DNA of 64,000 nucleotides from Cryptosporangium phraense (GTDB lineage: Bacteria > Actinomycetota > Actinomycetes > Mycobacteriales > Cryptosporangiaceae): contig NZ_VIRS01000022.1 of NCBI RefSeq assembly GCF_006912135.1, positions 1 through 64,000 on the forward strand, read 5' to 3'. Shown here piece by piece: positions 19,930 to 30,750 of this stretch. The notes beneath the pieces were generated by a model. That model was not told the origin of the DNA and ran no database searches. It was given only the letters and a program-made list of their open reading frames with translations. Within the stretch, counting starts at the first letter, position 1. Each line of letters opens with the position of its first letter. The translations under genes and the position numbers were made by a program.

Positions 19930-19999
19930 ACGTCCAGCCTTACACGCGGCGGCGCAATGTACCCGTCGGATGTCGGGTTTGGTTACGCCGGATTGTGGT

Positions 20000-20005
20000 T
20001 ACGCT
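20000..20005 (+). promoter_or_regulatory. -10 element TACGCT for leaderless oxidoreductase gene
   Basis: TAnnnT hexamer ending 6 nt before the GTG at 20012. The sequence GGTTACGC occurs twice here (19981-19988 and 19997-20004), which could also be a repeated binding site. Confidence 0.4.
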
Positions 20006-20011
20006 GCGTAG

Positions 20012-20476
20012 GTGCCGAACTACGCGACCTCGAACGTCGTGGACCGGACCGCACTGCTGGCGTTCCTGCGCCCTCGTCACCACGGGTTGCTGGCCACCAC
20101 CCGGAAAGACGGGCGGCCCCAGCTCTCGCCGGTGACCTGCGGGGTGGACGACGCCGGCCGGATCGTCGTCGCGACGTACCCCGAGCGGGCGAAGGCCTGC
20201 AACGCCCGGCGCGACGAGCGGGCCAGCATCTGCGTGCTCTCGTCCGACTGGGACGGGCCGTGGGTGCAGATCGACGGGGTGGCCGAGGTACTCGATCTGC
20301 CGGGGGCGCTGGAGCCGTTGGTCGAGTACTACCGGGTCATCGCCGGTGAGCATCCGGACTGGGACGGGTACCGGGCGGCGATGGAGCGGCAGGGGAAGGC
20401 GTTGATCCGGATTTCGATCGAGCGGTGGGGACCGATCGCTACCGGGGGCTTCCCGCCGCGGCTCGCGGGAGCCTGA
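20012..20476 (+). CDS. PPOX-class F420-dependent oxidoreductase
   Basis: 154 residues of the pyridoxamine-phosphate-oxidase-like split barrel, matching the Rv1155-type group. Key segments are HHGLLATTRKDGRPQLSPV at about 23-41 and VVATYPERAKACNARRDERA at about 52-71. Family members bind the deazaflavin F420 rather than FMN and reduce small organic substrates. No membrane or export signal. GTG start with no Shine-Dalgarno, consistent with leaderless translation. The downstream kinase has its own ribosome-binding site. Confidence 0.88.
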   Translation: MPNYATSNVVDRTALLAFLRPRHHGLLATTRKDGRPQLSPVTCGVDDAGRIVVATYPERAKACNARRDERASICVLSSDWDGPWVQIDGVAEVLDLPGALEPLVEYYRVIAGEHPDWDGYRAAMERQGKALIRISIERWGPIATGGFPPRLAGA

Positions 20477-20544
20477 CGGGGATCCGACACGGGTCGCTTC
20501 CTCCCTGGTCCTATCCTGGCCTGCAGAGGGCGAGGGGAGGTCGG

Positions 20545-23500
20545 GTGACACCTGCGGGCACCGGGCCTCGACTCGGAGACCGATATGTCCTCGGCGAGGT
20601 GTTGGGGCGCGGGGCGACCGGTGCGGTCTACGCCGCGCACGACGTCCACCTCGACCGGCCCGTCGCGGTCAAGGTCCTGATCCAGGCCGGCGACACGCTG
20701 ACGACGCCGGAACGCTTCCAGCGCGAGGCCCGCACGACCGCCCGGCTCAACCACGCGAACATCGTCGCGGTCTACGACGTCGGCCGGGTGACCGAGCGCG
20801 ACACGGTCGACGCCGCTCCGGGGACGCCGTTCCTGGTCATGGAGCTGCTGACCGGCGGGAGCTGGAAGGACACGCTGTCGCGGGGCAACCCGTCGCCGCC
20901 GCGGGTGGCGTCCGCGCTCGCCGGGGTCGCTCGGGCGTTGGCGGCCGCGCACGCGGTCGGCGTGACGCACCGGGACATCAAGCCGGCGAACGTGCTGATC
21001 AGCGCGGACGGCTCGGCCAAGCTCGCGGATTTCGGGATCGCGAAGTCGGTGGAGTCGACCGGGCTGACGAAGCAGGGGGAGATCGTCGGGACGTTGGCTT
21101 ACACGGCGCCCGAGTGTCTCGAGGGGCAGGCGGCCGGGCCGGCCGCGGACGTGTGGTCGTTCGGGGTCTTGCTGTACGAGAGTTTGTCGGGGCGGCGGCC
21201 GTTCGAGCAGGAGACGCTCGGGGCGTTGATCACGGCTATTCAGTCGGGTCGGTATCGGTCGTTGGCTTATGACTTACCGGCGTTGCCGCACAGTTTGTCG
21301 GCGACCGTGGATCGGTGTCTTGACCCGGATCCTCCGCATCGGCCTTCGGCGGCGGAGTTGGCTCGGGTTCTGGGTGAGGCTGCGGCGGCTGGGGAGTCTT
21401 CGGCGCCAGTGACTACGGTTACGCCGTTCTTGGGGCCGGTGGAGTTTCCGGTGTCTGGTCCTCCGGTGTCTGGGGGGCCGGTGTCTGGGCCTCCAGGCTC
21501 TTGGCGGGGTGGGGCGCCGCCGGCGCCTCCCACGTCTGGGGGGCCTAGCTGGGGGCGGCCGGTTTCGGGGCCGCCAGTGTCTGGGGGACCGGTGTCCGGG
21601 GGGCCGGTGTCTGGGCCGCCTCGGGGTGGGTCGGGGACCAGTCCGGTGCCGATTCCTGGGCTGCGTAGCAGCGGGCAGTTGCCGGTTCCGCCGCGGGGTG
21701 GGGCCGGGGCGGGTGGGGCGCCGCCGCCGTCGGGGCGGCCGGTGGCCGGGCCGGGGCGGCCGGTGGCCGGGCCGCCGCCCGAGCCTCCGCGTAAGAGGCG
21801 CCGCTGGCTGGTTCCGGTCGCCGGGGTCGTCGCGTTCGTGGTGCTTGCCGGGGGCGTCCTCGGCTCCCGGGCCCTGATCGACAGCGTCTCGGGCTGCAGT
21901 GGCGAGCTCCCGCTGGTCGTCGCCGCCTCGCCGGAGAAGTCCGGCATCGTCAGCGCGCTCGCCGATCGCTTCAATGCCGATCCGAGCGACGTCGACGGGC
22001 GGTGCATCAAGGTCCGGATCGTCACCGTGAAGTCGGGTGAGGCCGTCGACGCGCTGGCCAAGGGCTGGCCGACCGACGACTATGGCGACCGGCCGGACGT
22101 CTGGTCACCCGCCTCCAGCGTCTGGGTCGGCCTCGTCGGCCAGCGCGTCGGTGCGATCGGGACGCCCGCCAAGGCGCCCAGCCTGGCCCGGTCCCCGCTG
22201 GTCATCGCCGCCCCGGAAGCCACCGCCAAGGCCCTGGGCTGGCCCGACCGGCAACCCAGCTGGCAGGACATCGCCCGCTACGCCGGTAACGACGCCGCCT
22301 GGAAGGCCGCCAGCCACTCGAACACCCCGTTCGTGTTCGCGCGCACCAACCCGCTCGTCTCGACGTCCGGATTGCACGCGACGCTCGCCGCGTACCTGGC
22401 CGCACCCGGCCACACCGGGGACGTCCAACAAGATCTGGAGCGGAACAGCGTCAAACTCTTCCTCAGGACCCTGGAGCGGTCGACCGACCGCTACGGAGAC
22501 ACGACGCTGACGTTCCTCGACACGCTGCGGCAGCAGCAGGAGGAGCAGGCCGCGACGACGGTCTCGGCGCTCGCGGTCGAGGAGCAGACGGTCTGGGCGT
22601 ACAACCAGGGCGAGCCGCTGAGCGCGGGGGCCAGCCATCTGCCGCCGCCGAAGGAGAAGCTCGTCGCGCTGCACCCGAGCGACGGAACGCTGGTCTCCGA
22701 CCATCCGTACGTCACCGTCGACAGCGTGATCGACGCGCCGTGGGTGACGCCCGCCAAGCGGACCGCGGCCGACAAATTCCTCAGCTTCCTGCTGGCCGGT
22801 CCGCAGCAGGAGACGTTCCGCGCCGCGGGGTTCCGCGGTGCGGACGACAAGCTCGATCCGGACGTGGTGGCCAAGTCGAACGGCCTGATCAGTGCGGACG
22901 CCCCGACCGCGTTCGCGCCGCCGCAGCCGGCCGCCGTGCAGGCGCTGCTCGGAGCCTGGCGGAACCTCAACAAGCCGGCGAACGTGCTGATCGTGCTGGA
23001 CACGTCGGGGTCGATGAACGAGAAGGTGCCGGGGACCAGTACGACGCGGTTGCAGTTGGCGACCCGGGCGGCGAAGGAGTCGCTGTCGTATTTCGGGTCG
23101 AACGATTCGGTGGGGCTGTGGGAGTTCTCGACGCACCTGTCGGGGTCGGTCGATCATCGGCAGATCGTGGCGCTGGGTCCGAAGGACGAGGCTGCGCTCA
23201 GCCGAGGGCTGGACAGTCTGAAGGCGAAGAACGACACCGGGCTGTACGACACGGCGCGGGATGCGGTCGATACCGTGCGGGAGTCCGCGGATGCGGACGG
23301 CATCAACGCGGTCGTGCTGCTGACGGACGGGGATAATCAGGATCCGGGGAGCATCTCGCCGGGGGCGTTGTTGACGTCGCTGAAGAAGGCGCCGAGGGTG
23401 CACGTGTATCCGGTGGCGTTCGGGAGTGAGTTGACGCCGGCCGGGAAGAGGGTGTTGTCGCAGATAGCGGCGGCGACCGGGGGGCAGTATTACGAGTCGA

Positions 23501-23553
23501 ACGATCCGCGCAATATCGAGTCGGTACTGGGCGATGTGATGTCGAACTTCTGA
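20545..23553 (+). CDS. Ser/Thr kinase fused to solute-binding and VWA domains
   Basis: 1002 residues with an unusual domain order. Residues 10-285 form a PknB-type kinase with GRGATG loop (about 20), VAVKVL lysine (about 43), HRDIKPANV (142-150), DFG (162-164) and APE. Residues 290-420 are a Pro/Gly/Ser linker with seven PVSG repeats. Residues 422-445 are one membrane helix. Residues 450-800 resemble an ABC-type extracytoplasmic solute-binding protein (LPLVVAASPEKSGIVSALAD...). Residues 810-1002 are a von Willebrand A domain with MIDAS motif DTSGSMN at 819-825. The outer part would bind a ligand and a divalent-metal-dependent partner, and the inner part would signal. GTG start with GAGGGGAGG upstream. 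Confidence 0.88.
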   Translation: MTPAGTGPRLGDRYVLGEVLGRGATGAVYAAHDVHLDRPVAVKVLIQAGDTLTTPERFQREARTTARLNHANIVAVYDVGRVTERDTVDAAPGTPFLVMELLTGGSWKDTLSRGNPSPPRVASALAGVARALAAAHAVGVTHRDIKPANVLISADGSAKLADFGIAKSVESTGLTKQGEIVGTLAYTAPECLEGQAAGPAADVWSFGVLLYESLSGRRPFEQETLGALITAIQSGRYRSLAYDLPALPHSLSATVDRCLDPDPPHRPSAAELARVLGEAAAAGESSAPVTTVTPFLGPVEFPVSGPPVSGGPVSGPPGSWRGGAPPAPPTSGGPSWGRPVSGPPVSGGPVSGGPVSGPPRGGSGTSPVPIPGLRSSGQLPVPPRGGAGAGGAPPPSGRPVAGPGRPVAGPPPEPPRKRRRWLVPVAGVVAFVVLAGGVLGSRALIDSVSGCSGELPLVVAASPEKSGIVSALADRFNADPSDVDGRCIKVRIVTVKSGEAVDALAKGWPTDDYGDRPDVWSPASSVWVGLVGQRVGAIGTPAKAPSLARSPLVIAAPEATAKALGWPDRQPSWQDIARYAGNDAAWKAASHSNTPFVFARTNPLVSTSGLHATLAAYLAAPGHTGDVQQDLERNSVKLFLRTLERSTDRYGDTTLTFLDTLRQQQEEQAATTVSALAVEEQTVWAYNQGEPLSAGASHLPPPKEKLVALHPSDGTLVSDHPYVTVDSVIDAPWVTPAKRTAADKFLSFLLAGPQQETFRAAGFRGADDKLDPDVVAKSNGLISADAPTAFAPPQPAAVQALLGAWRNLNKPANVLIVLDTSGSMNEKVPGTSTTRLQLATRAAKESLSYFGSNDSVGLWEFSTHLSGSVDHRQIVALGPKDEAALSRGLDSLKAKNDTGLYDTARDAVDTVRESADADGINAVVLLTDGDNQDPGSISPGALLTSLKKAPRVHVYPVAFGSELTPAGKRVLSQIAAATGGQYYESNDPRNIESVLGDVMSNF

Positions 23554-23592: not shown

Positions 23593-24396
23593 TTACTCGT
23601 ACGGCTGGGACGGCGTCGGGATGCCGTTGACGGTGGCGGCTTTGAGGACGGGCACGGCCTGCCAGGGGTCTTTCGACTTGCTTGGTTCCCAGGTGCCGGT
23701 CACCTTCACCCAGGCGTCTCTGGTCACTCGGATCGGGGAGTCGACTACCTGCACCTGGAACGGGCGGGCATCCGCGGCGCAGCAGTTCACCTTCATTCGG
23801 GTGAGGTACCACGTGTCACCGGTGTGTGGGGTGACGAATCCGGTCAGTTCCACGGTGTGACCCTCCAGGGTCTTGCCGTCGTCCCAGACTGCTCGGCGGG
23901 CATAGTCCACGATCTTGAGCTGGACCGGGTCCGCGCCGGTCAGCGCTGGGTAGGTGACCGACCTCGGGGGTTTGGGCACGGTCACCGCGCCTCGTTCGGC
24001 GGCGAAGGAGCCCAGAGCCGGGGGTGGCACCAGCACCAGGACGAACACCGGCAGGATCCACAGCCAACCGACGCCATGTCCGTCCGAGCCGTGTGAGTGG
24101 CCTTCCTCCGCGTCCGCGTGGGAAACGTCGGCCTGGGGAGCGTCCGTATTGGCGCCTGGGCCGTGAGTTCGGACTCTGGCCTCAGCCCACCGCTCCTCGG
24201 AGCGTTCGGCCGCCTCGCGGCCGCGCCAGTCCTTCAGGAAGCCGAGGACGCCGAACGCCATCAGCAACACACCGGTCGCGACCAAGGGGATCGTGAGCAC
24301 GCCGCGGACGTAGTTCAGGTACTCGCCGGAGATGACCAGCTTCAGCAGGACCGCACCGAGCAGGACGAAGACGATCGCTTGGACCTCGCGCCGCAT
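23593..24396 (-). CDS. TIGR03943 (YcgQ/DUF1980) family membrane protein
   Basis: 267 residues. Two N-terminal membrane helices (about 7-25 and 33-56), a His/Asp-rich loop (HADAEEGHSHGSDGHG, about 93-108), a third helix (about 111-130), then an outer domain with the conserved NCCAADARP near 204-212. The family always goes with a YraQ/DUF318 permease, and here its ATG overlaps the permease stop (TGATG), so they are one unit. The His-rich loop suggests metal handling. The transported substrate is unknown. Confidence 0.85.
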   Translation of the reverse strand: MRREVQAIVFVLLGAVLLKLVISGEYLNYVRGVLTIPLVATGVLLMAFGVLGFLKDWRGREAAERSEERWAEARVRTHGPGANTDAPQADVSHADAEEGHSHGSDGHGVGWLWILPVFVLVLVPPPALGSFAAERGAVTVPKPPRSVTYPALTGADPVQLKIVDYARRAVWDDGKTLEGHTVELTGFVTPHTGDTWYLTRMKVNCCAADARPFQVQVVDSPIRVTRDAWVKVTGTWEPSKSKDPWQAVPVLKAATVNGIPTPSQPYE

Positions 24397-25412
24397 CAGG
24401 CGACTCCGATCAGCAGCAGGCCGGTGGTGACCGAGGCCGCGACCGCGACGACGAACGTCAGCGGCGCGAATCTGGTGGCGAAGGCTCGGCCGAACGTTCC
24501 CGTCTGCAGGGCGATGAGCTTGAGGTCGACGACCGGTCCGACGACCATGAACGCCAGCTGCGCCGGCACGGGAAACCCGGTCAGGCTGGCCGCCACGAAG
24601 GCGTCCGCCTCCGAACAGATCGAGAGGACGACGGCGAGCAGGGCCAGCACCAGGATCGAGAGCACCGAGACGCCGGCGACGGCGGTGATCCAGCTCGGCG
24701 GGACGACGACGTTCATCGTGGCGGCGGCCGCGGCCCCGATCACCAGGAAGCCGCCGGCCTCGAAGAAGTCATGGGCCACGGCCAGGCGGAAGGCCTCGAA
24801 CCTCGGCGTGCCGTCGGACGCGGCCGGCAGCCGCCGGGCGACCACGCGGCCCAGCCACTCCGGGCGCCCGAAGCGGGCCCAGATCCAGCCGACGATCACC
24901 GCGGTGGCCAGCGAGGCGACGAACCGCCCGACGACCATCATCGGCTGGCCGGGGAACGCGACAGCGGTCGCGACCAGCACGATCGGGTTGATCGACGGCG
25001 CCGAGAGCAGGAACGCGAGCGCGGCCGCGGGCACGACACCGCGCTCCACCAGCCGGCCGGCGACCGGGACCGACGCGCACTCGCAGCCGGGCAGCAGCGC
25101 ACCGGCCGCGCCGGCGACCGGCACCGCCAGCGAGGCCCGCTTGGGCAGGATCGCCGAGAACACCCGGGCGGGCACGAATGCGGTGATCGCGCCGGAGAGC
25201 ACCACACCGAGCAGCAGGAACGGCAGCGCCTGGACGACGATCGCGCTGAACACCGTGGTCCAGGTCGCGACCGCGCCGCGGCCACCGATCAGGAACGAGA
25301 GCACCTGGCGGCCGATGAGCACCGCGATGATCGCCGTTACGAGCAGCGCGATGACGCCGGTGTGCGACTCGGGATCGGCGGCCTTCGACCGGACCTCGGA
25401 ACGCGACGACAT
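24396..25412 (-). CDS. YraQ/DUF318-family permease
   Basis: 338 residues with eight to ten hydrophobic helices spread over the whole length. Family features are GVVLSGAITAFVP near 90, PGCECASVPVAGRLV near 130-144 with a Cys pair, and SAPSINPIVLVATAVAFPG near 160-178. Relatives include ArsP, which exports trivalent organoarsenicals, and YcgR, but no arsenic genes are adjacent. It is translated first, and the TIGR03943 partner is coupled by a 1-nt stop/start overlap. A 211-bp gap separates it from the divergent small gene. Confidence 0.85.
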   Translation of the reverse strand: MSSRSEVRSKAADPESHTGVIALLVTAIIAVLIGRQVLSFLIGGRGAVATWTTVFSAIVVQALPFLLLGVVLSGAITAFVPARVFSAILPKRASLAVPVAGAAGALLPGCECASVPVAGRLVERGVVPAAALAFLLSAPSINPIVLVATAVAFPGQPMMVVGRFVASLATAVIVGWIWARFGRPEWLGRVVARRLPAASDGTPRFEAFRLAVAHDFFEAGGFLVIGAAAAATMNVVVPPSWITAVAGVSVLSILVLALLAVVLSICSEADAFVAASLTGFPVPAQLAFMVVGPVVDLKLIALQTGTFGRAFATRFAPLTFVVAVAASVTTGLLLIGVA

Positions 25413-25902: not shown

Positions 25903-26898
25903 ATGGGAGCGAAGCGGACGGCGATCCTGGTGGGTGCGGCCGCGGCCGCAGCGGTGGTTCTCGCTCGACGGTCGGCCCGGGCGCACGCGCTCACCGACCC
26001 GCGGCTGGACGCGCTGGCGCCGGTTGCGCCGCGGTCCGAGCGGATGGTGCGGTCGGCGGACGGCACCGAGATCCACGTGGCCGAGTACGGGCCCGAGGGC
26101 GCGCCGATCGTGGTGCTGGCCCACGGCTGGACCTGCGGCATCGGCTTCTTCACGAACCAGATCCGGGCGCTCTCCTCAGACCTGCACGTGGTCGCGTACG
26201 ACTTACGTGGGCACGGCGGTAGCGCGATCCCGAGCCCGGGGCGGTACACGACCGATGAATTGGCCGACGATCTGGCCGCGGTGCTGCGGGCCACCGTGCC
26301 GGACGGGCAGAAGGCCGTGCTGTTCGGGCACAGCATGGGCGCGATGAGCATCGTCGCGCTGGCGGCCCGGCACTCGGCGCTGCTCAACGACAAGGCGGCT
26401 GCGACCCTGCTCGCGAACACCGGCGTGACGAGCCTGGTCACCGACTCGCGGCTGCAGCCCGGGCCGGACGTCCTGCGTCGGCTGACCGCCCCGCTGAACC
26501 GGGCCGTGCTGGCCGCGCCGCTGCCGCTGGGCCCGGTGACGTCGGCGACGTTGCCGCTGATCCGCTACATCGCGCTGGCGCCGGGCGCGACGCGCGAGAA
26601 CGTCGCGTTCTGCGCGCACGTGATCCTGGACACGCCCCGAACGGTGCGCGGCGGGTTCGGGGCGACGCTCGGGACGCTCGATCTGCGGCTCGCGGTGCCG
26701 CACCTGGGCCTGCCGACGACGGTCGTGACCGGGGAGTTCGACATCCTGACGCCGCCGGCGATGGGGCAGCGACTGGCCGCCGATCTGCCGAACGCGCGGT
26801 TGGTCGAGATCCCCGGGGTCGGGCACATGACGCCGGTGGAGGCGCCCGAGGTGCTCGAGCGAGAGATCCGGGCGCTGGTGCCGGCGATCGTGAACTAG
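25903..26898 (+). CDS. Alpha/beta-fold hydrolase, probably membrane-anchored or exported
   Basis: 331 residues. The N-terminus (MGAKRTAILVGAAAAAAVVL) is a basic-hydrophobic segment that could be a signal anchor. The hydrolase core shows the oxyanion HGW near 72, the nucleophile elbow FGHSMG near 144-149, an acid in GEFDIL near 282, and the His in GVGHMTPVEAP near 306. The serine triad is complete. The substrate is unknown; relatives include esterases and haloperoxidase-like enzymes. The stop lies in a CTAG shared with the stop of the convergent kinase. Confidence 0.85.
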   Translation: MGAKRTAILVGAAAAAAVVLARRSARAHALTDPRLDALAPVAPRSERMVRSADGTEIHVAEYGPEGAPIVVLAHGWTCGIGFFTNQIRALSSDLHVVAYDLRGHGGSAIPSPGRYTTDELADDLAAVLRATVPDGQKAVLFGHSMGAMSIVALAARHSALLNDKAAATLLANTGVTSLVTDSRLQPGPDVLRRLTAPLNRAVLAAPLPLGPVTSATLPLIRYIALAPGATRENVAFCAHVILDTPRTVRGGFGATLGTLDLRLAVPHLGLPTTVVTGEFDILTPPAMGQRLAADLPNARLVEIPGVGHMTPVEAPEVLEREIRALVPAIVN

Positions 26899-28892
26899 GC
26901 GGCCGGCGTCGACGGGGGGTCGTTGACCTGGGGGGACGGGCAGATGACCTGGACGTCGACCGGCGTCGGGCGGAAGGTGCCCGGCGTCGTGATCAGGCCG
27001 CTGATCGAGATCGTGCCGGTGGCCGGGTTGGCGATCGTGATCGCCATGTTCGGCGAGAACGTGTCGGCCGCGGTCGTCGTGTTGACGCCGAGATCGCTCT
27101 CGCCCGAGCTGGCCGTCACCTTGTAGACGACGCGTGTCGCCGCCGAGACCGAGATCGTGAACCTGACGTTGACCGTCAGCGGGGCCGTGCAGTCCTTGGG
27201 CTGCAGCGGCGTGGACGAGGCGAGTGACGCGCTGACCACGGTGGCCGATGGGGGGACGTCCGGGTCGGGATCCGGGTCCGGGCTCGGCGTCGTGGGCGAC
27301 GGGCTGAGGGTCGACTGGCTCGGTGAGGGCTGGGCTTCGGTCGGCGACGGGACCGGGGTGGTGGGGGTCGGTATCGGCGCCGGGTTGCTCTGACCTGGGT
27401 CTTCGATGGTGCTGGCGCGGGTTGCGCGGTCGGTGCGGCCGGAGGTGGCGACCATGTTGGCGATCGCGCCGGCGGCCAGGGCGAGGATCAGGATCGCGAC
27501 GACGGCGAGGACCCGTTTTCCGCGGTTGCCGGGCGGGGGAGAGTCCGGGGTGAAGCTCGGGGGGTCGGTGGGGGGCGGGCCGCCGCCGACGTTGCCCGGG
27601 CCCCAGGCGAGTTCGCGGGCTCCGGAGACGGGTGGGGCGGCGTGATACGAGTCGTACCGAGGCCCGGAGACGGGCGGCGCTCCGGAGACCGGCCGGCCAT
27701 AAACAGCTCCGCCGGAGATGGGTGCACCAGAGACCGGCCGCCCGTAGACAGCCCCGCCCGAGACCGGCGCGGCGCCGGACACCGGAACCCCGGAGATCGG
27801 TCGGCCATGAACAGCGCCCCCGGAGACCGGGAAGTCTCCCGAGTCGCGGCGGAACTCGCCCGTGTACGGCAGCGGCTCGCTCGGCAGCGGCTCGGCACCC
27901 GGACCCGACTGCCACGACAACGGCCGTAACTGCTCCGCCGGCCGCAACACCGCGAACACCGCGGTACTGAAATTGCTCGGCTCGTCCCCCTGCACGTTCG
28001 CCCGCTCGTCCGTGTCGACCCGTCCGGGCGGCGGCGGCACGAACTCGCCCGACCGCGTCGCCGACTCCTCCGACTCGTTGTCGGCGATGCTCTTCAGCAT
28101 GGCCCGGGCCCGGGCGTGCTCGAGCCGGTTCTCCGGCGTCTTCTCCAGCAGCCCGTCGATGATCGGCGTCAGGCGCGCGCCGGCCCGCTTCGGGCGCGGG
28201 TGCGGCTGCGTCGCGCTGGCGAACAGCCCGACGATCGTCTCCTTGGCGGTGAACGGGCTGATGCCCTCGACCGCGAAGAACAGCGTGGCGCCGAGCGCGA
28301 ACAGGTCGCCGGCCGGCGTCGTCTCGCCCTTCATCAGCCGCTCGGGCGCGATGTAGCCCGGCGACCCGAGCAGCGCGCCGGTCTTCGTCAACGTCTCGGT
28401 GCCGAACACCGACGCGATCGAGAAGTCGGTCAGCTGGGCCGTGCCGTCCCGCTGGATCAGCACGTTGTGCGGCTTCACGTCCCGGTGGATGACGTTCGAC
28501 GCGTGCGCCGCGGACAGCGCGTCGAGCAGCTCGACGCCGATCCGGGCGACCTCGCGCGGGGTCAGCGGCCCGTCGGCGGCGACGACGCGGTCGAGCGAGC
28601 GCCCGTCGACGAACCGCATGATGATGAACGGCTGCTCGTCGTGCAGGATCACGTCGTGCACCGGCACGATGTTGGGGTGGTCGAGCCGCCCGGCGCTCTG
28701 GGCCTCGAGTAACGCGCGCTTGGTCAGCGTCTCGCGTTCGTCGGCGTTGATCGTAGAGGGGAAGCGGACCTCTTTGACGGCGACCGTGCGGTTGAGCCGC
28801 AGGTCGTAGGCGCGCCACACCACGCCCATGCCGCCCGAGCCGACCACTGCGTCGAGGCGGTACCGGCCATCGACTGCCCTCTGCTCAGCCAT
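26895..28892 (-). CDS. Transmembrane Ser/Thr protein kinase (DFS type) with PVSG linker
   Basis: 665 residues. Kinase domain about 10-270: GSGGMG loop, VAVKEV lysine, HRDVKPHNV near 134-142, but LTDFSIAS where DFG is usual, and APE. A long linker (270-460) carries repeated PVSG/PISG and AVYGR units. One membrane helix lies at about 461-483, then a Pro/Ser/Thr-rich stalk and a C-terminal beta-sandwich-like outer domain (about 545-660) with two Cys. The outer domain resembles that of the neighbouring kinase. The ATG at 28892 directly follows GGAGGA. Likely an envelope or stress sensor; targets unknown. Confidence 0.88.
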   Translation of the reverse strand: MAEQRAVDGRYRLDAVVGSGGMGVVWRAYDLRLNRTVAVKEVRFPSTINADERETLTKRALLEAQSAGRLDHPNIVPVHDVILHDEQPFIIMRFVDGRSLDRVVAADGPLTPREVARIGVELLDALSAAHASNVIHRDVKPHNVLIQRDGTAQLTDFSIASVFGTETLTKTGALLGSPGYIAPERLMKGETTPAGDLFALGATLFFAVEGISPFTAKETIVGLFASATQPHPRPKRAGARLTPIIDGLLEKTPENRLEHARARAMLKSIADNESEESATRSGEFVPPPPGRVDTDERANVQGDEPSNFSTAVFAVLRPAEQLRPLSWQSGPGAEPLPSEPLPYTGEFRRDSGDFPVSGGAVHGRPISGVPVSGAAPVSGGAVYGRPVSGAPISGGAVYGRPVSGAPPVSGPRYDSYHAAPPVSGARELAWGPGNVGGGPPPTDPPSFTPDSPPPGNRGKRVLAVVAILILALAAGAIANMVATSGRTDRATRASTIEDPGQSNPAPIPTPTTPVPSPTEAQPSPSQSTLSPSPTTPSPDPDPDPDVPPSATVVSASLASSTPLQPKDCTAPLTVNVRFTISVSAATRVVYKVTASSGESDLGVNTTTAADTFSPNMAITIANPATGTISISGLITTPGTFRPTPVDVQVICPSPQVNDPPSTPAA

Positions 28893-28988
28893 TCCTCCGC
28901 CATCTGTCGCCCCGACCGACGGTAGCCTCCCCGTGCACGTTGCACCGACGGTCCGATCGGATACCGGACAAGGGTGCAACCGCGAGCG

Positions 28989-30674
28989 TCAGCCCAGGCA
29001 GACGACGTTGATTTGCACCGGAACGGGAGAGAACCGGGTCGGCGATTCAACCACCGCCTGCACCGCATACTTGCCGCTGCCCTGGGCGAACAGCAAGCCC
29101 ACCGAGTCCGTGCTCGTGAACGTCCGGTCGTCGTCGGTGACCGTGCCGCCACCCCCGGCGACCTCGCTGTCTCCCGGTGCGAGCGAGACGCGATAGCGGA
29201 CGTCGGTCGGCACGTCGCTCACCGTTACCGAAAGGTTCACGGTGAAGGTCACCTCGTTCGCGCACGAGCCGAAGTAGCTCTTCGGTGAGACGTCGAGGTC
29301 GGCCGAGGTCACCTGCCCGACCGGCGCGGCCGGGGCGTCGCTGGGCCCGGGCGGGGCGGCCGAGGCCGACGGCGAGGACGACGCGGACGGTGACGCCGAG
29401 CCGCTCGGGCTCGCGCTGCCGCTGGGCGACGCGCTCGTGCTCGCCGACGCGGATCCGTCGGCCGACGGTGCCTCGGCCGACTCGGCCGGCCCGAGCGACG
29501 TCGTCACCGAGGTGGATCCGTCCCGGTCGTCGGTGCCGCCGCGGAGGGCGACCGCGGCCACGACCGCCACCGCGACGAGCAGGACGGCGAGCCCGCCGAT
29601 CAACGCGCGCCTCCGACGCCGGCTGCTCGGATCGACGTGCGACGCCACGTCTGCCCGCGATGGCGGCCCCTCGCGTGACGCCGACGCCGCCGGAGCGCCG
29701 CCGTGCGAGATCGTCGGCGAATCGGTGCCCGCCGCGAATTCGTCCCACGCATCGGGCTCGGACGCCACGGCGACGCGCTGCGTAGCGTCCGTATCGAGTT
29801 CTTGGGTCAGCGCGTCGGAGACGGACGGGCGCGGGGCGCGGGCCACCGCGACGAGCGTCGCGCGGATCGACACCAGGTCGGGCCGGGCCGATGGGTCCTT
29901 GACCAGCAACGAGTTCAGCAGCGGGCCCAGCGGGCCGGCGCGCTCGGGCGCCGGATGCGGGTGGGTCGCGGTGGCGAGCAGCGCGGCGAGCGGGTCGGGG
30001 CGGTCGAACGGACCGTGACCCTCGACCGCGCAGAACAGCGTGGCGCCGAGGCCGAACAGGTCCGCCTCGGGACCGGTCTGCAGTCCGTTGAGCCGCTCGG
30101 GGGCGATGTAGCCGGGCGAGCCGAGCGCTCCGCTGCCGGCCGACATCGTGCCGCGGAGCGAGTCGGTGGCGATCGAGAAGTCGGTGAGCAGGACCTCGCC
30201 GTCGTCGGTGACCAGCACGTTCGACGGTTTGACGTCCCGGTGGACGACGCCGTTGCGGTGGGCCGCGGACAGCGCGTCGGTGAGCGCGATGCCGATCTGC
30301 GCGACCCGGGCCGGGCTCATCGGCCCTTCTTCGCGCACGATCTGGCTCAGCGAGCGGCCCTCGACCAGCCGCATCACCAGGCAGGGCATGCCCCGGTCGG
30401 CGACGACGTCGTGCACCGCGACGATGTTGGGGTGCGACACCCGGGCCGCGTGCCGGGCCTCGGACATCGCCCGGCGGACCAGGATCGTCCGCTGGTCGTC
30501 GGTGACGGCGTCGGGTAAGTGGACTTCCTTGACCGCGACCGGACGCCGTAGCCGCGTGTCGTAGCCCCGCCAGACCGTGCCCATGGCGCCGGTGCCGACC
30601 ACGTCATCCACCCGGTAGCGCCCAGCGATCATCCGCACCGGGTCTCGGCCCGGCGCTCGCGTGGGTTCTGTCAT
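28989..30674 (-). CDS. Transmembrane Ser/Thr protein kinase (DFS type)
   Basis: 561 residues. Kinase domain about 15-275 with GTGAMG, VAVKEV, HRDVKPSNV and LTDFSIAT (DFS in place of DFG), then APE. A juxtamembrane linker follows, with a membrane helix at about 355-378, a low-complexity Ser/Ala/Pro stalk (about 385-440) and a C-terminal outer domain ending FSPVPVQINVVCLG. Its end parallels FRPTPVDVQVICPSP of the kinase downstream, so the pair arose by tandem duplication. The ATG at 30674 is used; a GTG 9 nt earlier is possible. 96 bp separate the two kinase genes. Confidence 0.88.
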   Translation of the reverse strand: MTEPTRAPGRDPVRMIAGRYRVDDVVGTGAMGTVWRGYDTRLRRPVAVKEVHLPDAVTDDQRTILVRRAMSEARHAARVSHPNIVAVHDVVADRGMPCLVMRLVEGRSLSQIVREEGPMSPARVAQIGIALTDALSAAHRNGVVHRDVKPSNVLVTDDGEVLLTDFSIATDSLRGTMSAGSGALGSPGYIAPERLNGLQTGPEADLFGLGATLFCAVEGHGPFDRPDPLAALLATATHPHPAPERAGPLGPLLNSLLVKDPSARPDLVSIRATLVAVARAPRPSVSDALTQELDTDATQRVAVASEPDAWDEFAAGTDSPTISHGGAPAASASREGPPSRADVASHVDPSSRRRRRALIGGLAVLLVAVAVVAAVALRGGTDDRDGSTSVTTSLGPAESAEAPSADGSASASTSASPSGSASPSGSASPSASSSPSASAAPPGPSDAPAAPVGQVTSADLDVSPKSYFGSCANEVTFTVNLSVTVSDVPTDVRYRVSLAPGDSEVAGGGGTVTDDDRTFTSTDSVGLLFAQGSGKYAVQAVVESPTRFSPVPVQINVVCLG

Positions 30675-30750
30675 CTCAGACACCAGTAGTCACCGTAGCC
30701 GCACGACCCTGGGTGCGCGGTGGGCGCCCGGTATTAGGCACGATGAACCA

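Follow-up and report, generated by a model that had tools for sequence, protein, structure and literature searches.

A conserved Ser/Thr receptor kinase of Cryptosporangium with a probably interchangeable actinobacterial solute-binding and von Willebrand A head

In a 64,000-nucleotide stretch of the Cryptosporangium phraense genome (contig NZ_VIRS01000022.1, positions 1 to 64,000; hereafter the window), the gene at 20545-23553 encodes a genuine, conserved receptor kinase. It belongs to a known general kind, the kinases with a solute-binding protein (SBP) domain, and its ectodomain bears a von Willebrand A (VWA) domain as well. The best explanation, to which we assign a probability of about 0.7, is a single-span receptor Ser/Thr kinase with an interchangeable actinobacterial SBP-VWA head. 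In several lineages signalling outputs are either fused to this ectodomain or encoded next to it, which favours a receptor role, and since the same sensor is joined to quite different inner parts in related bacteria, the evidence suggests that the head is interchangeable. An earlier note on this DNA had proposed a receptor that reads a ligand or a cell-surface partner by metal-dependent adhesion and phosphorylates inside the cell. Of this proposal the receptor role is favoured, and the remainder enters below as part of a possible mechanism. The elements of the gene, including its metal-ion-dependent adhesion site (MIDAS), are as follows.

20533..20540, forward strand: Shine-Dalgarno-like AGGGGAGG, read directly, ending 4 bases 5' of the GTG start
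20545..23553, forward strand: the receptor gene (kinase, membrane span, SBP, VWA), 1002 residues, from the open frame and Pfam
20584..21360, forward strand: Ser/Thr kinase domain, PknA/PknB-like, residues 14-272 (Pfam PF00069, 1.4e-49)
21400..21792, forward strand: proline/glycine repeat linker, about residues 286-416 (genus alignment)
21805..21870, forward strand: single membrane span, about residues 421-442 (hydropathy)
21913..22836, forward strand: solute-binding domain SBP_bac_11, residues 457-764 (Pfam, 1.7e-16)
22981..23526, forward strand: VWA domain, residues 813-994 (Pfam PF00092, 4.5e-9)
22999..23013, forward strand: MIDAS motif DTSGS, residues 819-823; T898 (23236-23238) and D928 (23326-23328) complete the site

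Pkinase, SBP_bac_11, VWA and VWA_2 all match the 1002-residue chain above their Pfam gathering cut-offs. SBP_bac_11 scores 61.2 bits against a cut-off of 25 bits, VWA_2 matches at 1.4e-8, and the VWA and VWA_2 matches begin at residue 813/814. The same layout was present in all four genus genomes returned by the searches (G000-G003, the window's own included), and over the whole chain the three other copies are 76-77% identical to that of the window. Because the same chain is found in three other genomes, an artefactual assembly join of two genes is ruled out, and the one 1002-residue chain described in the earlier note stands. The start codon is the GTG at 20545, and in the alignment the conservation among genus copies begins at about this position. 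The repeat linker and the one membrane span that the note had described are both there. The linker is of the (PPxSG)n type and differs strongly in length among the four species copies, whereas the span is the single strongly hydrophobic stretch of the chain and is directly preceded by KRRR, which by the positive-inside rule would place the kinase inside and the C-terminus outside. Invariant in all four copies are K43, H142-R143-D144, N149 and D162-F163-G164 of the kinase, and likewise D819, S821, S823, T898 and D928 of the MIDAS, which was therefore rightly called intact. In the one genome from another genus of the same family (G004), the ectodomain had two matches, and no kinase was seen within 1.5 kb around L036, the one match examined.

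The kinase domain is complete and PknB-type, as had been claimed: K, HRD and DFG are all present, and the closest solved structures in a PDB sequence search are PknA and PknB. Its best NCBIfam fit is the PASTA-kinase model NF033483, which falls below the cut-off (237 against 450 bits) and covers residues 7-279 only. As the Pfam scan of the chain gave no PASTA match either, membership of the PASTA/PknB (Stk1) receptor kinases was rejected. Membership of the StpK7 (MSMEG_1200) family was rejected likewise, since its model NF052427 reached 153 against 900 bits, over residues 13-231 only. What the chain does combine, a kinase, a membrane span and a solute-binding domain, is the general make-up of the SBP receptor kinases. 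AfsK and the PASTA kinases also have an inner kinase, a single span and an outer sensor, but there the outer part is a beta-propeller (AfsK) or PASTA repeats instead of an SBP-VWA module.

Structure prediction of the outer region, which the earlier note had recommended, gave a confident model containing both an SBP and a VWA domain. AlphaFold2 was run on residues 452-1002 with 48 relatives hand-picked from 80 loci, and the resulting model has a mean pLDDT of 91.2, a pTM of 0.88 and no residue below 50. In a Foldseek comparison with the PDB, the sulfate-binding protein 1sbp ranks first (E 2.3e-11; TM-score 0.67 on target length; root-mean-square deviation 5.5). The remaining top matches are VWA proteins (TFIIH subunits and BatB) and the solute-binding proteins AfuA and MalE, and in profile searches the VWA part matches BatB and ITIH chains. 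The solute-binding domain is thus identified by a profile above cut-off as well as by its fold, and the label 'ModA-like' given to it earlier is acceptable as a class. The VWA domain has the whole MIDAS set of DxSxS, T and D.

In an alignment of 49 sequences (A3, with positions converted to full-chain numbering), the solute-binding residues S462, S497, G498, S606, G609 and E680 and all five MIDAS residues are invariant. In the secondary structure of the model the six solute-binding residues lie just past strand ends or at helix starts, and such positions are where the ligand is bound in a solute-binding fold. A wider set of 51 rows retains all eleven residues in 46, namely in 23 of the 24 lone ectodomains and in 23 rows with a kinase, helix-turn-helix (HTH) or PNP output; each complete row with such an output, the kinase being fused or adjacent, keeps them all. 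The five exceptions are L064, L221 (its SBP part lies outside the sequence piece used), two caspase rows that differ at 497, 498 and 609, and an EAD1 row that differs at 497. Judged by this conservation, the cleft and the MIDAS both look to be under selection. The pattern bears on the idea that the protein is an adhesion or envelope-strain sensor, in which the VWA domain would sense a surface ligand while the SBP domain would be a mere spacer that no longer binds solute. We consider this quite unlikely. It would fit the long linker of variable length and the greater constancy of the MIDAS, whose D, S and S are found in 51/51 rows, even in those with differing cleft residues (T and D in 50/51). 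However, a mere spacer would not need the six cleft-loop residues that are invariant in A3 and kept together in 46 of the 51 rows. The presence of a separate solute-binding protein gene in three neighbourhoods (L307, L308 and L309) also speaks against it.

Searches with the window's ectodomain as query, its own genome being included in the counts, show that the SBP-VWA module is widespread among actinobacteria. It was matched in 37 of 61 genomes of near relatives (E <= 0.001) and in 74 of 397 genomes of the order (E <= 1e-60); within the class there were matches in 119 of 394 genomes and within the phylum in 21 of 296, both at E <= 1e-30. Seven matches lie in the window's own genome, the receptor gene itself among them. 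The module mostly resides in frames of about 600-700 residues, and a membrane span lies immediately N-terminal of it in 226/232 frames (234 in total, of which two with fewer than 30 residues ahead were omitted; one gene may be counted in several loci). Frame length alone was not used for calling fusions, because many extensions gave no Pfam domain. Two open frames, in L216 (G170) and L228 (G405), extend for more than 700 residues ahead of the SBP-VWA module with no Pfam domain in the extension.

The earlier note had also suggested looking for the architecture in other genomes. Beyond the full chain within the genus, fusions of a kinase to SBP-VWA were found in family f14. Pairing was surveyed in 186 distinct ectodomain sequences, with matches under about 300 residues excluded; the sample is biased towards good matches, and counts inside one lineage are not independent. 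Seven of the 186 are fused to a kinase, or six of 185 once L006, which duplicates the window gene in truncated form, is dropped; these six are the four genus copies and two of family f14 (L222 and L223, by Pfam). A search of f14 itself gave matches in 35/297 genomes at 1e-80, and the loci listed include another four kinase fusions (L259-L262). Ahead of its kinase, the L223 frame may carry two more spans. In 15 of the 185 a kinase gene lies directly upstream on the same strand and in one it is divergent. Thirteen of the 15 belong to family f15 and two to Actinomadura strains, whose upstream kinases themselves carry an SBP_bac_5 domain. For the f15 ectodomain genes L194, L204, L039-L041 and the second tandem copy in L196, no adjacent kinase was found. 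The lysine, the catalytic aspartate and the DFG aspartate are retained in all paired kinases examined. In 12 of the 13 f15 upstream kinases (L192-L193, L196-L203, L205 and L063) HCD replaces HRD (non-RD type).

The kinases so paired are of more than one lineage. A tree was built of 51 kinase domains, of which 30 come from other kinases in the window's genome. The fusion kinases of the genus make up a clade of their own there (100/100). A second clade (99/96) takes in the f14, f15 and Actinomadura kinases together with two more kinases from the window's genome, one of them the kinase-SBP_bac_5 protein. By p-AU (approximately unbiased test) one clade of genus and f15 kinases was rejected (8.4e-11), as was one clade of genus and f14 fusion kinases (0.00023), and a single origin of both pairings is thereby rejected on kinase trees. 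A grouping of f14, f15 and Actinomadura kinases that leaves out the two window-genome kinases is weakly rejected (p-AU 0.036), so these pairings may likewise be separate events. With one protein tested per lineage, the best NCBIfam fit of L223 (f14, 195 bits) and L063 (f15, 202 bits) is AfsK, in both cases below cut-off. The SBP-VWA ectodomain is thus paired also with a second, AfsK-like kinase lineage, both as fusions and as upstream genes. This second pairing makes it highly improbable that the window gene is an incidental fusion of the genus, in which the kinase reads a cue of its own and the ectodomain is a passenger. Such a reading would agree with the confinement of the window's kinase lineage, among the fusions found, to the window's genus, but the ectodomain has stayed 77-79% identical to the window copy in the three other genomes while the linker has varied freely.

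Other outputs are joined to the same ectodomain. HTH_31 is fused to it behind one span in L177, L179, L211, L220, L221, L265, L266 and L273. The first four were called by Pfam (above cut-off in L211 only) and the last four assigned by similarity to them, and six of the eight count as distinct because in the 48-row ectodomain tree L265 and L273 cannot be told apart from L179 and L177, respectively. A PNP_UDP_1 nucleosidase is joined through one span to SBP-VWA in L214:3277-6570 (G165), the same gene as in L087. A caspase-like Peptidase_C14 domain is fused to span, SBP and VWA in L308 (G047), the same gene as in L292, with a second copy, recognised by similarity, in L307 (G055), where an SBP_bac_8 gene lies beside it. 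In L308:5197-9565 the gene directly upstream of the caspase gene matches EACC1 above cut-off (26.2 against 23.6 bits), and a separate SBP_bac_8 gene comes after the caspase gene. In L309:2875-8190 (G234; the gene is that of L296) an EAD1-span-SBP-VWA gene directly follows an EAD1-TIR gene and is itself followed by a separate SBP_bac_8 gene, an arrangement that resembles a bacterial membrane receptor coupled through an adaptor to a TIR effector. A frame in L204:2967-4196 (G620) weakly resembles the L292 caspase (41.6 bits); it converges on an SBP-VWA gene, with 7 bases between the two.

These death-type partners raise the question of whether the main task of SBP-VWA heads is to signal damage to the envelope or the presence of an invader, the kinase arm sharing a defence logic with the caspase, EAD1-TIR and nucleosidase arms. 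In its favour, an EACC1 gene directly 5' of a caspase gene, as in L308, fits System 4 as outlined in the available text of PMC7159879, where some instances have membrane helices and extracellular periplasmic-binding domains, and the order of the EAD1 genes in L309 points the same way. The window gene likewise has an inner signalling domain, a span and an outer binding domain, but the signalling domain is a kinase. Pfam gave no EACC1, EAD, TIR or caspase family among the nine window proteins scanned, and at E 1e-5 the window contains no match to the relatives' caspase, EAD1 or TIR domains; the neighbour at 19940-20551 has no Pfam match, and the window holds no L292-like caspase. Moreover, the caspase and EAD1 ectodomains are distant from the family profile, at 180 and 271 bits compared with 528-817 for the set holding L259-L262, and differ at cleft positions. 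PADLOC matches were set aside as uninformative for defence, because the best 25 of 33 fall in the kinase region of the chain. We regard this reading of the heads, as receptors for conflict or cell death, as rather unlikely.

Ectodomain trees, built without the caspase and EAD1 relatives, gave a mixed answer. In the 48-row tree, the f14 kinase fusions and the HTH and PNP fusions, 15 rows in all, group as a single clade (100/100) to which the genus fusions do not belong, and one clade of all ten kinase fusions is rejected (p-AU 0.009). Several results weigh against the reading as a receptor kinase with an interchangeable head. A 71-row tree does not reject one clade of six kinase-fused ectodomains (p-AU 0.49), nor does the 48-row tree reject a single clade of all ectodomains that carry an output (p-AU 0.32), so that there may have been one early fusion in which the inner domain was later exchanged. 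Given the cleft differences of the caspase and EAD1 forms, the various forms may not all share a ligand. For 163 of the 186 ectodomain genes no neighbouring kinase was found, many having only about 1.5 kb of flank and four less than 1 kb upstream. Finally, the conserved neighbours that the earlier note had proposed to seek exist upstream in three genus genomes, but no conserved operon partner is evident across the genus, the neighbours being HAD phosphatases and others in divergent or convergent orientation.

In the best explanation the receptor would work as follows. The solute-binding domain, outside the membrane, would close on a small ligand, while the VWA domain would hold through its metal site a second partner, which may be a cell-envelope component, a soluble protein or another receptor. 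Binding of both would alter how the ectodomain dimerises or clusters, and this change, passed through the span and the repeat linker, would unite the inner PknB-type kinase domains, which would then phosphorylate each other's activation loops and subsequently inner targets. In the course of evolution the head would have been joined to a kinase on two or more occasions, and on others to a DNA-binding domain, to a nucleosidase, to a caspase-like peptidase and to an EAD1 adaptor. More tentatively, and with doubts that outweigh our confidence, SBP-VWA may be a shared plug-in ectodomain for sensing a solute together with a metal-dependent partner, shuffled onto kinase, DNA-binding, nucleosidase, caspase and EAD1-TIR outputs. 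In function it would be comparable to the outer parts of animal receptor kinases and of death and Toll receptors, and the window gene would be the version with a PknB-type kinase. An outer domain that is modelled with confidence and is found again on kinases, regulators and effectors of the death type, with the cleft and metal-site residues mostly retained, is an object for ligand screening, and if one ligand class were shared, many receptors would be explained at once.

The stimuli that activate bacterial Ser/Thr kinases are called an outstanding question in the accessible part of PMC6069109. The earlier note knew of no described receptor kinase with this layout, which the literature searched bears out for the exact chain but not for the class. 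SBP receptor kinases are in print, as MSMEG_1200 and 'a further 260 SBP kinases' per InterPro (PMC6069109, available text) and as a Streptomyces coelicolor kinase with a solute-binding domain (PMC1262709, available text). No description of a kinase-SBP-VWA chain was found in the literature searched, subscription papers and InterPro aside. MSMEG_1200/StpK7 likewise unites kinase and solute-binding domain in one actinobacterial polypeptide, but the sections of PMC6069109 at hand mention no VWA domain in it, and the window's 153-bit match to its model is confined to the kinase part. The same sections describe a precedent for the mechanism in the mycobacterial GlnH-GlnX-PknG system, where an outer solute-binding protein governs an inner Ser/Thr kinase; it differs in comprising three separate proteins, with PknG lacking a membrane span, an amino-acid SBP and no VWA mentioned. 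PpkA of Pseudomonas aeruginosa, treated separately in PMC1262709, has kinase and VWA in one chain as the window protein does, but about 300 residues of unknown function lie between them and the accessible portion reports no solute-binding domain. EADs are described in PMC7159879 and PMC8195603, as far as their available text goes.

The surroundings of the receptor gene are partly conserved. The adjoining gene is:

19940..20551, reverse strand: divergent neighbour of 203 residues, no Pfam family at E 0.01

This neighbour adjoins the receptor in all three other genus genomes, and the window's upstream genes, encoding a DEAD helicase, a GNAT protein, a HAD phosphatase and the 203-residue protein, are kept in these relatives. 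On the other side of the receptor the three relatives have a second, convergent HAD phosphatase; in the window a TIGR03943/DUF1980 and ArsP_1 permease pair (23593-25412, reverse strand) occupies that side instead.

Further kinases were noted in the window's genome. Two Ser/Thr kinase genes stand in tandem at 26898-30689 on the reverse strand of the window; they form one small clade with L249, and each has DFS in place of DFG. A second SBP receptor kinase of 905 residues, Pkinase with SBP_bac_5, is encoded on contig C34 (L253:4839-7556), and on contig C46 (L047) a 1865-residue kinase-AAA-GAF-GGDEF frame is divergent to a lone SBP-VWA gene.

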